This document shows, in pieces, positions 13,211 through 35,908 of a DNA stretch of 37,981 nucleotides. Source of the DNA: a virus; IMG/VR virus record IMGVR_UViG_3300044630_001814, positions 1 to 37,981 of that record. The stretch is one strand, 5' to 3'. The notes below the pieces were generated by a model. That model made no database searches. It had not been told where the DNA came from and saw only the letters and a program-made list of their open reading frames with translations. Position numbers and translations under genes: made by a program. The first letter of the stretch is position 1; each line of letters starts with the position of its first letter.

Positions 13211-13258
13211 TACGTTCATTGCATTAATGCAACGGAAGTAGGGAAACCGAAGGAACGC
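13211..13258 (+). ncRNA. Glutamine-type riboswitch (Downstream-peptide motif)
   Basis: CGTTC at 13213-13217 pairs with GAACG at 13253-13257 to form P1. TTGCAT (13219-13224) pairs with ATGCAA (13227-13232) in a second hairpin. The conserved core reads CGGAAGTAGG and then ACCGAAGGAACGC, which is the hallmark of the Downstream-peptide/glnA RNA family that binds L-glutamine in cyanobacteria and their phages. It lies 30 bases upstream of a short ORF at 13289, as that motif normally does. It probably controls that peptide in response to host nitrogen status; the direction of control is not visible. Confidence 0.9.
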
Positions 13259-13288
13259 TCTTTAGCCTAAAAATTAAGGAGAACCATC

Positions 13289-16154: not shown

Positions 16155-16225
16155 GCGGGTATGGTGTAGTGGTAACATACCATCCTTCCAAGTTGTAGTC
16201 AGGGGTTCGAATCCCCTTACCCGCT
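16155..16225 (+). tRNA. tRNA-Gly (anticodon TCC)
   Basis: A 71-base tRNA with a perfect 7-bp acceptor stem (GCGGGTA with TACCCGC), a T-arm AGGGG-TTCGAAT-CCCCT, and a D-arm containing AGTGGTAA. The anticodon loop CTTCCAA gives TCC. The anticodon stem (CCATC with GTTGT) has only three normal pairs out of five, so the molecule is somewhat degenerate or uses non-standard pairs. No CCA is encoded. It would help read GGA/GGG codons, which an AT-rich phage uses more than its host. Confidence 0.85.
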
Positions 16226-16226
16226 T

Positions 16227-16248
16227 CCCAGTTATCTGGGTATAAATA
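16227..16248 (+). promoter_or_regulatory. Hairpin abutting a late promoter TATAAATA
   Basis: CCCAG (16227-16231) pairs with CTGGG (16236-16240) across a TTAT loop one base after the tRNA. TATAAATA (16241-16248) follows immediately, 31 bases before the porin start. The hairpin may help tRNA 3' processing; the late box should drive the porin. Confidence 0.75.
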
Positions 16249-16279: not shown

Positions 16280-17800
16280 ATGAAATTTTTTAAACAACTG
16301 ATGCTTGCACCCGTTGCTCTTGGTATTGTTACTCCTGCTGTTGCGAATGCCGCAGATCTTAAAATTGCAGCAGTTAACCAATACTCTTCTGAGCAAGCAA
16401 CAAGTGTGACTCAATTTTCTGATGTTCAACCTTCAGACTGGGCATATCAGGCACTTAGCAACCTTGTAGATCGTTATGGTTGCGTAGCAGGTTATCCTAA
16501 CGGCACTTATGGTGGTGGTAAGGCAATGACCCGTTATGAGGCAGCAGCACTTCTGAATGCTTGCCTTGATCGTGTAACTGAAGTGACTGATGAACTCAGT
16601 CGTCTTACAAAAGAATTCCAAGAAGAACTTGCTGTTGTTCGTGGTCGTGTTGATGGTTTAGAAGCAAAAGTTGGTCAACTGGAAGCACAGCAATTCTCCA
16701 CTACTACCAAACTACGTGGTGAAACTAAGTGGGTTCTGGGTGGTCTGTCTTATGGTGGTGATCGTAAAGATGATTACGATGCTCTCCGTGAAGCAGTTTC
16801 TTTCAACTATGATGTGAAACTGAACCTGGATACTTCTTTCACTGGCAAAGACCTGCTGCGTACTCAACTTCGTGCTGGTAACTTTGATGATAGTGGTTTC
16901 GGTGCTGCTCCTACTCCTCTTACCAAACTTGATGCTGGTTTCCAAGAAAACCTTGGTAATGCTGATGGTGGTGATGTAGTGGCAATTAACCGTCTGTACT
17001 ACAAGTTGCCTGCTGGTAATGATGTAACTATTGTTGCTGGTCCTCGTGTTCGTCAAGATGATATCCTGCCTGTGTGGCCTTCTGTCTACACTGCTGATAA
17101 GATCCTGAACATCTTCCAGTTCAACGGTGCTCCTGGTGCCTACAGCAAGGTTCTGGGTGGTGGTTTCGGTGCTTCCGTTAAGAAAGGTGGTTGGACCCTG
17201 GGTGGTGCCTACGTTGCTGCTGATGCAGACAAGGGTGATAGTGCTGAAGGTGGTATGTTCAATGGCAACTCTGCTGCTTCTACCACTGCTCAACTTGCAT
17301 ATACTGCTAAGAACTGGAACCTGACTGGTGCCTATACTTATTCCAACAACGGTGTAAGTATTCAAGGCACTCCTACTCTGACTTCGGCACTTCCTAATAG
17401 TGTAACTGGTGGTCAGACCAACTCGTTCTCTCTTGCTGGTTACTGGCAACCTTCCACCTCTGGTATTGTTCCTTCAATCTCTGCTGGTTGGGGTTATAAT
17501 AACTCTGGTTATACTGAGGGTGGTGATACTATTTCTCAGTCCTGGTATACTGGTCTGGTTTGGAAGGATGTAATTGCTAAGGGTAATGCTCTTGGATTTG
17601 CAGTTGGACAACCTACTTTTGTTACCAAGCAGAACGATGTAAATGCTCAAGATGGCAACTATGCTTTCGAGGCATATTACAAGATGCAAGTTACCGATAA
17701 CATTGCCGTAACTCCTGCTGTGTTCTATCTGAGCAATCCTACTGGTACTGATGGTCTTGATACCTTCGGTGCTTTGGTTCAGACAACCTTCAAGTTCTAA
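16280..17800 (+). CDS. Cyanobacterial-type outer-membrane porin (SLH + OprB-like barrel)
   Basis: A 506-residue protein with the full layout of a cyanobacterial major porin (SomA type). A signal peptide (MKFFKQLMLAPVALGIVTPA, then VANA) is followed by an SLH domain at about 45-98: FSDVQPSDWAYQALSNLVDR, GYPNGTY, MTRYEAAALLNACL. A coiled coil spans about 100-137 (LTKEFQEELAVVRGRVDGLE). The rest is a Gly/Thr/aromatic-rich beta-barrel ending in TTFKF; the terminal Phe is the outer-membrane assembly signal. It appears intact. Codon choice is richer in C and G than its AT-rich neighbours, consistent with host origin or high expression. A canonical late promoter precedes it. It could alter uptake (such porins have been linked to iron or carbohydrate passage) or the infected cell's surface. 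Confidence 0.92.
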   Translation: MKFFKQLMLAPVALGIVTPAVANAADLKIAAVNQYSSEQATSVTQFSDVQPSDWAYQALSNLVDRYGCVAGYPNGTYGGGKAMTRYEAAALLNACLDRVTEVTDELSRLTKEFQEELAVVRGRVDGLEAKVGQLEAQQFSTTTKLRGETKWVLGGLSYGGDRKDDYDALREAVSFNYDVKLNLDTSFTGKDLLRTQLRAGNFDDSGFGAAPTPLTKLDAGFQENLGNADGGDVVAINRLYYKLPAGNDVTIVAGPRVRQDDILPVWPSVYTADKILNIFQFNGAPGAYSKVLGGGFGASVKKGGWTLGGAYVAADADKGDSAEGGMFNGNSAASTTAQLAYTAKNWNLTGAYTYSNNGVSIQGTPTLTSALPNSVTGGQTNSFSLAGYWQPSTSGIVPSISAGWGYNNSGYTEGGDTISQSWYTGLVWKDVIAKGNALGFAVGQPTFVTKQNDVNAQDGNYAFEAYYKMQVTDNIAVTPAVFYLSNPTGTDGLDTFGALVQTTFKF

Positions 17801-17828: not shown

Positions 17829-17899
17829 CGTGGGTGAGTGTAAAGGTAGCACAGAAGTCTCATAAGCTTCAGGAGGGGGTTCAATTCCCTCACCCGCCA
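17829..17899 (+). tRNA. tRNA with CAT anticodon (Met, or Ile2)
   Basis: A 71-base tRNA. The anticodon arm GAAGT-CTCATAA-GCTTC is fully paired (one G-T) and gives CAT. The T-arm is GGGGG-TTCAATT-CCCTC and the D-arm GTGT-AAAGGTA-GCAC. The acceptor CGTGGGT/ACCCGCC leaves a C-C mismatch at the first pair, reminiscent of initiator tRNAs, but the GGG/CCC anticodon stem of initiators is absent. The base at position 8 is G rather than the usual T. Whether it is Met or lysidine-modified Ile cannot be decided by eye. Confidence 0.8.
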
Positions 17900-24607: not shown

Positions 24608-24632
24608 CAAATCATAATAGAACCTATATACT
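24604..24632 (+). promoter_or_regulatory. Strong sigma70-type promoter for the hli cassette
   Basis: A perfect TTGACA (24604-24609), a 17-base spacer and TATACT (24627-24632). It lies 27 bases ahead of the hli start and overlaps the stop of the last glycan gene. Confidence 0.88.
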
Positions 24633-24659
24633 GTTGTAACAGTTCTTTACAAAACTACA

Positions 24660-32960: not shown

Positions 32961-33320
32961 ATGGCAGCACCTAATCTCAAGAATCCAACTACAATTACAG
33001 GAAAAACTGTAAGAGTTGGTGTCACAACTTCTATCGTTGGTATTTTAACAAACTCTCCTGATAGTAATAAGGTATTAAAGATCAACAGCATCTTCTGCGC
33101 CAATGTGGACGGGGTGAACGCGGCTGACATCAGCGTGTCGATCTACGACGGCACGACAGATCGCTACATCGCCAAGACCATCACGGTGCCTGCCGATGCC
33201 ACGCAAGTGCTCAGCACCAAAGAGACGTATTTCTATCTAGAGGAAGGCGACAGCATCCGCGCCTTGGCTAGTGCTGCCAGTGACCTAGATCTGGTGATTG
33301 GCTACGAGGAGATCTCCTGA
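32961..33320 (+). CDS. Small virion-type protein, mosaic AT-rich/GC-rich gene
   Basis: A 119-residue beta-rich protein: MAAPNLKNPTTITGKTVRVG, GILTNSPDSNKVLKINSIFC, then ISVSIYDGTTDRYIAKTITV and a final VIGYEEIS. It resembles small phage tail or fibre-associated proteins. Its first 40 codons are AT-rich like the backbone. From about 33085 the codons abruptly become GC-rich (for example GCCAATGTGGACGG). The junction falls in frame inside the gene, so this is a recombinant. Its TGA overlaps the next ATG (ATGA). Confidence 0.75.
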   Translation: MAAPNLKNPTTITGKTVRVGVTTSIVGILTNSPDSNKVLKINSIFCANVDGVNAADISVSIYDGTTDRYIAKTITVPADATQVLSTKETYFYLEEGDSIRALASAASDLDLVIGYEEIS

Positions 33321-35100
33321 TGAGACTCGGACTAATTGGCGGCACGGATAGCAAGCGCACCAGCGGGATGTATCAGCCCGAGGACGTGGTGTCGCTGCAA
33401 GATGCCAAGAAATACTTGACACGCTTTGGCTACGACGGGGTGTTTAACGCCCTGAGCAGCTCTGGTATCGAAGAGGGCTTTGATGTCAGCCGTGACGGGC
33501 GTTATGTCTACGTTGCTCAACGTGGTGGCACTAGGATAACCGGCGTTATATTTCAATACACATGTTCAACGCCTTGGGATCTTTCGACGATTACCTTCTC
33601 CGGCAAGAGCTTAACTGTTGGTGACTATGAAATCAACTGCAACGGCATCGCTATCAGCGATGACGGCACCCATCTATTTTTCACTGGATACGGCGGCGAC
33701 ACCGTATGGTCCTGCACCCTGTCTACGCCTTACGATCTTGCTACTGCCACAGTTGATGTAAAGAAGTTCTACGTTGGCGGGCAAGACGCAGCGCCCAGCA
33801 CGCCGTTCTTTGGCGACAGCGGCACCAAGATGTATGTCATGGGTAGTATCAATGACAGAGTGTATCAGTACAACTTGACAACAGCATGGGATGTTAGCAC
33901 TGCAAGCTACTCCAACAACAGTCTTCTCGTTACATCGCAAGACGCAACCCCCACGGGCTTGTTCTTCGGTGACAGCGGCACAAAGTTGTATGTCGTTGGT
34001 CTAACTAATGATACTGTTTACCAGTACACTCTGACCACTGCGTGGGACATCAGCACTGCGAGTTACGCCAGTCTTAGCTTCTCTGTCGCCACGCAGGAAC
34101 TGACGCCTCGCGCTTTGTTTTTTAAGCCTGATGGAACCAAGATGTTTGTCATCGGTCAAGCTGGCGACGACGTTAATGAGTACGACCTAGGTACCGCCTG
34201 GAATGTAAGCACCGCAAGTTTTGTTCGCGCCTCTGCTGCTGTCGGTGAAACAAATCCAACGGGCCTGTGGTTCAAAGATGATGGCACAAAAATGTACGTT
34301 ACGGGCAACACGAATGACACCGTTAGAGAGTTTTCGTTGTCTACTGCATGGAACGTCTCCACGATTTCTTTTGTGCAATCACTGTCTATTGGATTTGAAA
34401 TCGCACCTACAGGCGTAACCTTTAAGGATGACGGTACTGAGTTATACGTTTTAGGCAGCACAAACGATAGTGTTTACGAAATCCAACTCGGCACCGCCTG
34501 GGACATCAGCACTGCCAAGGGATACCTCTACGTAGGCGGCACTGAGATCACTCCTCGTGGTATTCACATCAACAGCGATGGAACCTTGCTATTTCTTGCC
34601 GGCAGTGGCTCTGGCAACATTCGTAAATACACACTTTCTACTGCCTACGCGGTGGAAACTGCCGCATTGTCCCAGAGCTTTGCATTGACGACAGTTTATG
34701 GAGTTCACGTTACTGCGGACGGTCGAACCATTTATGCAACCACAGGCAACTCGTCTCCAAGCCCAGCAGGAGGCAGACAAGTGCGACAAATCACCCTGAC
34801 TTCTCCGAATAATCTATCAACTGCCAGCACTAGCTCTGTTGAAGTTATACCCCTGTACGGATTAACCGGCGTGACTGACGCTTGTTGGGGCGTCCGCGTA
34901 TCTCCTGACGGCACCCGCATGTTTGTGCTTTCTGAGGAGGTACAAGGTTTATACCAATTCTCTCTGAGGTTTGCGTGATGCTGTACTCCCTCCACGGTGC
35001 TCGCCCCGCCCCGCTGCCCTTCCGCATCACCTTGCCCAACGGATTCACCCGCACCGATCCCAGCAGCTTCACTGAAGACGAAATTTCTGCTGCTGGTTTC
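33085..35100. other. GC-rich segment with sharp edges (probable horizontal exchange)
   Basis: Codon and base composition change abruptly near 33085 and return to AT-rich near 35100. The region carries the end of one gene, all of the beta-propeller gene, and the start of the chaperone gene. The edges lie inside coding frames, which points to homologous exchange with a GC-rich relative rather than insertion of a mobile element. No integrase, transposase or flanking repeats are visible. Confidence 0.85.
33320..34978 (+). CDS. Beta-propeller-like adhesin or tail-fibre protein (GC-rich)
   Basis: A 552-residue protein made of repeated units of about 42-45 residues. Each reads roughly F-x-D-S/D-G-T-K-M/L-Y-V-x-G-x-x-N-D-x-V-Y-x-Y-x-L-x-T-A-W-D-V/I-S-T-A, as in GDSGTKMYVMGSINDRVYQY and GDSGTKLYVVGLTNDTVYQY. 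About nine to ten units can be traced, consistent with one or more beta-propellers. There is no signal peptide or membrane helix. Such repeats occur on phage fibres, where they would contact host surface sugars or proteins. The gene is entirely within the GC-rich segment. A tail-fibre chaperone-like gene follows in a four-base-overlap arrangement. Confidence 0.8.
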   Translation: MRLGLIGGTDSKRTSGMYQPEDVVSLQDAKKYLTRFGYDGVFNALSSSGIEEGFDVSRDGRYVYVAQRGGTRITGVIFQYTCSTPWDLSTITFSGKSLTVGDYEINCNGIAISDDGTHLFFTGYGGDTVWSCTLSTPYDLATATVDVKKFYVGGQDAAPSTPFFGDSGTKMYVMGSINDRVYQYNLTTAWDVSTASYSNNSLLVTSQDATPTGLFFGDSGTKLYVVGLTNDTVYQYTLTTAWDISTASYASLSFSVATQELTPRALFFKPDGTKMFVIGQAGDDVNEYDLGTAWNVSTASFVRASAAVGETNPTGLWFKDDGTKMYVTGNTNDTVREFSLSTAWNVSTISFVQSLSIGFEIAPTGVTFKDDGTELYVLGSTNDSVYEIQLGTAWDISTAKGYLYVGGTEITPRGIHINSDGTLLFLAGSGSGNIRKYTLSTAYAVETAALSQSFALTTVYGVHVTADGRTIYATTGNSSPSPAGGRQVRQITLTSPNNLSTASTSSVEVIPLYGLTGVTDACWGVRVSPDGTRMFVLSEEVQGLYQFSLRFA

Positions 35101-35775: not shown

Positions 35776-35812
35776 AGTCAGGAAACAAAGACAAATGTTA
35801 ATGTTTCTTACC

Positions 35813-35908
35813 ACTTCTCAAACCGAGATCACGAGAAGTAAAGCATCTCTCATATCCACGATGGAGGGTGTCGTGGAGTATAATGTAACCATTCAGTTCC
35901 CCCTGAAT
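35813..35908 (+). promoter_or_regulatory. Structured leader of psbA with three hairpins
   Basis: The 160-base leader holds ACTTCTC/GAGAAGT (35813-35819 with 35833-35839), CCACGA/TCGTGG (35856-35861 with 35871-35876) and ATTCAG/CTGAAT (35891-35896 with 35903-35908). No ribosome-binding site precedes the ATG. The hairpins could control stability or translation of psbA mRNA. Confidence 0.6.

Follow-up and report, generated by a model that had tools for sequence, protein, structure and literature searches.

The stretch of DNA analysed here (the window) is a virus record of 37,981 bases, a T4-like Kyanoviridae contig that encodes the tail of a DNA polymerase, UvsX, a DnaB-type helicase, a primase, NrdA and NrdB, together with a tail lysozyme, endolysins, a tail fibre and psbA. 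Its single porin gene (Table 1) is an intact frame whose product ends in TFKF. Several further elements were recorded along the contig: a glutamine riboswitch (RF01739, 56.7 bits) at 13211-13261, downstream of nrdB and ahead of ORF 13513, which has a weak polynucleotide-kinase match; a PhotoRC-II RNA element (RF01717) at 35799-35891, directly upstream of psbA; and a 552-residue ORF at 33320-34978 with matches to seven-bladed beta-propellers (lactonase/SGL), the GC (0.51) and GC3 (0.54) of which are unlike those of its neighbours and more host-like than those of the porin. Near the porin locus, ORF 14729-15157 matches a PHROG named 'NAD synthetase' as well as homing-endonuclease PHROGs; it reads like a GIY-YIG nuclease, and the PHROG name may be wrong.

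Table 1 Features at the porin gene of the window and at the second porin site (loci I and II are described in the text)
Feature	Coordinates	Strand	Basis
tRNA-Gly(TCC), bounding porin locus I on the left	16155..16225	+	ARAGORN, Rfam; position shared by related locus I phages
TATAAATA, T4-type late promoter sequence, 39 nt before ATG	16241..16248	+	exact match; conserved in relatives
SLH/OprB porin gene, 506 aa	16280..17800	+	ORF, Pfam, NCBIfam, AlphaFold2 model
Signal peptide region, ~residues 1-24, phage signature LMLAP	16280..16351	+	read from sequence
SLH domain, residues 46-89	16415..16546	+	Pfam PF00395
Coiled-coil helix, residues 85-138	16532..16693	+	AlphaFold2 model
Anchor/barrel junction, identity to L019 dropping from ~90% to ~50%	16700..16717	+	sequence comparison
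Type A 16-strand barrel, residues 142-506	16703..17797	+	Pfam, barrel tree, AlphaFold2 model, PDB fold match
Terminator-like hairpin GGGGG-AGAAAT-CCCCC after stop codon	17809..17824	+	sequence; position shared by other locus I phages
tRNA-Met-like gene (CAT), flanking the porin on the right	17829..17899	+	Rfam RF00005, 50.7 bits
Empty locus II, site holding the porin in other phages	24608..24659		comparison with other phages

Pfam assigns the product to SLH (E 6e-9, residues 46-89) and OprB (E 2e-19, residues 106-506), and the NCBIfam model por_somb ('iron uptake porin') matches residues 41-506 at 300 bits, against a curated cut-off of 100. The features that mark this family are found together in one protein: SLH, OprB and a signal peptide (the N terminus being read from the sequence), a modelled barrel of 16 strands and an aromatic last residue (Phe). 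The AlphaFold2 model (mean pLDDT 79; mostly above 90 in the barrel, low confidence over residues 1-83) places a helix at residues 85-138, followed by 16 strands spanning residues 142 to 505, and its first match in a fold search of the PDB is OprB, with the SLH porin OmpM1 also among the matches. An earlier note, made from the sequence of the window, had described a complete SLH/OprB porin led by a T4-type late promoter and flanked by phage tRNAs, and each of these points is borne out. The exact promoter sequence is kept at -38/-39 in related locus I porins, and the gene lies between a tRNA-Gly gene and a tRNA-Met-like gene that was detected by Rfam and missed by ARAGORN. Across the window, the 6 copies of TATAAATA (3.6 expected) are not above chance in number; all 6 are on the + strand, and ATAAATA occurs 19 times on the + strand and once on the - strand. 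The alternative that the same note had named as fatal to its reading, a phage structural protein with no SLH/OprB match, is ruled out by the clear OprB and SLH matches and by a PHROG search in which the porin had no match.

Freshwater cyanobacterial viruses widely carry a predicted SLH/OprB porin gene of their own, of the kind that provides the chief pore proteins of the host outer membrane. Among 50,697 phage records, the only full-length relative is that of S-SRM01 (two records of one phage), which is 52% identical and annotated 'porin'; a first scan of IMG/VR gave 43 porin loci, and a second one, run with a profile, picked up at least 551 stretches encoding relatives, counted by profile match alone. 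The statement that no standard cyanophage gene set includes a porin, if taken to mean that the gene is unprecedented, cannot be upheld in view of the annotated porin of S-SRM01 and the hundreds of viral contigs with relatives. The porin is flanked on both sides by phage genes in more than one phage, and host contamination, which had been raised as a possible refutation, is ruled out by the T4-like genes on either side and by the recurrence of the same linkage in many independent contigs. In the isolate DSL-LC03 (Dishui Lake), the corresponding region is present but filled with other genes, and no porin match was obtained, which makes the gene accessory. In the papers searched, we found nothing on iron uptake porins of phages or on SLH porins as auxiliary metabolic genes, and no discussion of a phage SLH/OprB porin family; the description of S-SRM01 makes no mention of its porin (PMC8557907).

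Two genomic sites hold the gene. At locus I (the window, S-SRM01 and others), the porin directly follows tRNA-Gly; at locus II, it lies between a GT25 glycosyltransferase and the region of ORF 24660, peroxiredoxin and endolysin. All 80 loci of the second scan have the neighbours of locus I or II, and 5 of them have the neighbours of both. One porin, and never two, was counted in each of 28 records, which are mostly fragments apart from a 132-kb contig and the full genome of S-SRM01. Each site was seen empty in phages whose other site is filled: in contig L225, the porin occupies locus II and locus I is cleanly empty, tRNA-Gly being separated from the following gene by a few dozen bases; in L231, L232, L233 and the window, locus I is filled and locus II is empty. 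Porins of locus II (for example, in L010, L013 and L267) have a conserved GTCCTATAGTAC / GTCGTTTAGTAC approximately 15-30 nt before the ATG, often after an inverted repeat, and a TTCTTAACA stretch is common to both loci. A Dps (ferritin-like) gene lies within a few kb downstream of the locus I porin in S-SRM01, L033, L038, L042 and L043; in L220 (5219-5650) and L221 (1633-2064), a Dps gene stands at locus I without a porin, and the porin is at locus II.

The two halves of the protein have different histories. In the barrel tree, the type-A barrel of the window is nested, on starred branches, in porins of freshwater Synechococcus, Cyanobium and Vulcanococcus, and the B1 barrels (that is, the S-SRM01 type) and a third set, B2, are placed elsewhere among host porins. 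A tree in which all phage barrels form one clade is rejected (p 2e-73), ruling out a common origin for them; a joint clade of B1 and B2 withstands the same test (p 0.059), and we therefore limit our claim to at least two barrel sources rather than three. The porins of L298 and L309, whose barrels have only ~44% identity to those of types A, B1 and B2, possibly carry a further barrel source on the same phage anchor. In the anchor tree, the 17 phage representatives are all grouped together, apart from 79 host rows (an unstarred branch with SH-aLRT 90, based on few columns), barrel types A and B are intermixed within this group, and the LMLAP signature in the signal peptide is present in 79 of 80 viral genes. 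The window anchor pairs with that of the B1 phage L019 as its sister (starred, 96), and the two genes are 87-97% identical in nucleotides to approximately residue 140 and mostly 40-65% thereafter. If a pair is called discordant when its anchors have at least 88% DNA identity and its barrels no more than 60% protein identity, 70 non-redundant phage porins yield 43 such pairs; of the 25 pairs listed, most are between porins other than that of the window. The anchor DNA tree rejects a single type A clade, whether the window is included (p 2e-4) or left out (p 0.018). As judged from these trees and comparisons, the phage porins are one phage-lineage anchor fitted with exchangeable barrels from at least two host porin families, and the exchange evidently takes place by recombination at the anchor/barrel boundary.

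The window porin, in which an anchor matching type-B1 phages is joined to a type-A barrel, may itself be an assembly artefact, namely a chimera of phages that occur together and have the anchor sequence in common. In the larger scan, every type-A barrel (14 in number) is at locus II, the barrel of the window is the only one of its type seen at locus I and no second contig of that kind was found; moreover, contigs L040 and L041 stop exactly at the junction, where assemblers break. However, a false join would be required at both ends of the barrel, and no fetched type-A barrel is identical to that of the window (at most ~97% in protein). We regard a chimera as rather improbable, and the family-wide mosaic stands without the window.

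Base composition places the gene with phages. Although its GC (0.452) is raised relative to the window (0.363), this stems mostly from a Gly/Ala-rich protein, and its GC3 (0.30; 0.27-0.38 in 80 viral relatives) is close to that of phage core genes (0.26) and far below that of host porins (0.80-0.83). Its codon usage is nearest to that of phage psbA (distance 0.109), followed by core genes (0.151), and far from that of host porins (0.311), to which it is slightly closer than the core genes are (0.362). Of the host-like bases and codons described in the earlier note, then, the raised GC and the slight approach of the codons to the host hold good, whereas GC3 and overall codon usage are phage-like, which points to long residence in phages. 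A host-nested position, as expected of an auxiliary gene acquired from the host, is seen in one half only: the barrel nests among host porins, whereas the anchor falls in a group of phages, and recent host capture of the gene is ruled out by GC3 and the anchor tree. The type A porins are under purifying selection (dN/dS ~0.16).

Host and phage genes also differ directly before the start codon. The 9-mer GTGTGAGGA, the complement of part of the conserved motif of the small RNA Yfr1, was found in 75 of 122 host porin genes, always 2-5 nt before the ATG (a looser motif is present in 86 of 89), and at none of 35 phage porin starts, nor at any of 80 in a larger set. Yfr1 (RF01116) was found in 6 of the 7 host genomes examined, and the 5'UTR of a Prochlorococcus porin is repressed ~4.7-fold by Yfr1 in an Escherichia coli reporter (PMC6778093). 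Given the presence of the 9-mer in host genes, its absence in phage genes and this known repression, we infer that the phage porin genes most probably escape Yfr1 control, and the missing site would allow the evasion of a host small RNA by a phage gene to be tested directly.

On the basis of these observations, we suggest, giving the proposal an even chance, that the gene provides a late-made, functional channel outside Yfr1 control that takes over ion (probably iron) entry through the outer membrane during infection. Transcription would start at the phage late promoter, and the mRNA would be translated at a time when Yfr1 still holds the host porin mRNAs. The product would then be exported, tethered to peptidoglycan by its SLH domain and become a main channel for inorganic ions, probably including iron, so that the infected cell stays supplied up to lysis. 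By exchanging barrels, phages would adjust the properties of the channel, and perhaps its exposed loops, to the host or the water. The substrate (that is, inorganic ions or iron) is probable from family membership: the Synechocystis counterparts carry most inorganic-ion uptake, and Slr1908 matters for iron (PMC8707739). In keeping with such a role, host porin transcripts of Prochlorococcus go up in dark infection (PMC5082946). The Synechocystis ion and iron porins, together with the Dps gene in five locus I phages, favour ion or iron entry. Against this, the late timing suits replacement of a receptor at least as well as feeding, and the glycosyltransferase neighbours would also suit remodelling of the cell surface.

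Receptor replacement (that is, superinfection exclusion) holds that the phage porin displaces host porins serving rival phages as receptors, barrels being exchanged since exposed surfaces face an arms race. Phage PA-2, with its porin Lc, provides a precedent for a superinfection-exclusion porin, and the constant anchor with exchanged barrels, the late-type promoter and the LPS-type glycosyltransferase and sugar genes adjoining locus II would all fit. Yet the external loops predicted for type A show neither positive selection nor an excess of replacement changes (their dN/dS is 0.16), and we know of no porin that acts as a receptor of these phages; this role seems possible but doubtful. Alternatively, an SLH-tethered porin may hold the outer membrane to peptidoglycan until the endolysins act, or may aid rupture; the SLH anchor is kept in all phage members, lysis genes lie near both loci and Synechocystis hypervesiculates on losing a related porin (PMC8707739). 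Such maintenance of the envelope would not need an exchangeable channel, however, and the barrel is kept intact under purifying selection, making this the least probable of the three. Our ranking is thus ion or iron entry, at about an even balance, followed by receptor replacement, with envelope maintenance third.

Considered together, the data lead us to lean slightly towards a modular cassette, in which a phage-owned anchor would carry an interchangeable host-derived barrel, present in one copy per genome at either of two sites and freed of Yfr1, with recombination switching the outer-membrane channel or surface. Most of what is known of cyanophage auxiliary genes concerns photosynthesis and intracellular metabolism. 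The very common phage gene family described here should act on the host outer membrane, the layer that decides entry and phage binding.

Among known systems, the closest is the porin of S-SRM01 (Kyanoviridae; Serangoon Reservoir; QPX48248.1), which is likewise a full-length SLH/OprB protein of the same phage anchor lineage and occupies the same locus, after tRNA-Gly and downstream of nrdAB and a lysin, but differs in its B1 barrel, its overall sequence (52% identity) and the Dps gene just downstream. Cyanobacterial Som/por_somb porins (Synechocystis Slr1841 and Slr1908) have the domain order, fold family and por_somb match in common with the phage porin, which is set apart by its LMLAP anchor, phage-like GC3, late promoter and lack of a Yfr1-complementary site. 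OmpM1 of Veillonella parvula (PDB 8bym) also combines SLH, coiled coil and porin barrel, and matches the window porin in sequence over the SLH/coiled-coil part and in fold, but is cellular and from another phylum. In T4-like cyanophages, an SLH domain is also found in the 'iron uptake porin' of S-CREM1 and the 'putative S-layer protein' of S-PM2; their similarity to the window porin is limited to the SLH/coiled-coil stretch, and Pfam finds no OprB in the S-CREM1 protein. Phage-carried porins are represented elsewhere by OmpL of Flavobacteriales viruses (PMC8115048) and by OmpC-like and OprO/P-like proteins in uncultured phages (BFVD); these belong to unrelated porin families and to other hosts, and no SLH anchor is reported for them. 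Exchange of barrels on an anchor recalls the exchange of tail-fibre modules, except that the phage porin concerns the surface of the host.
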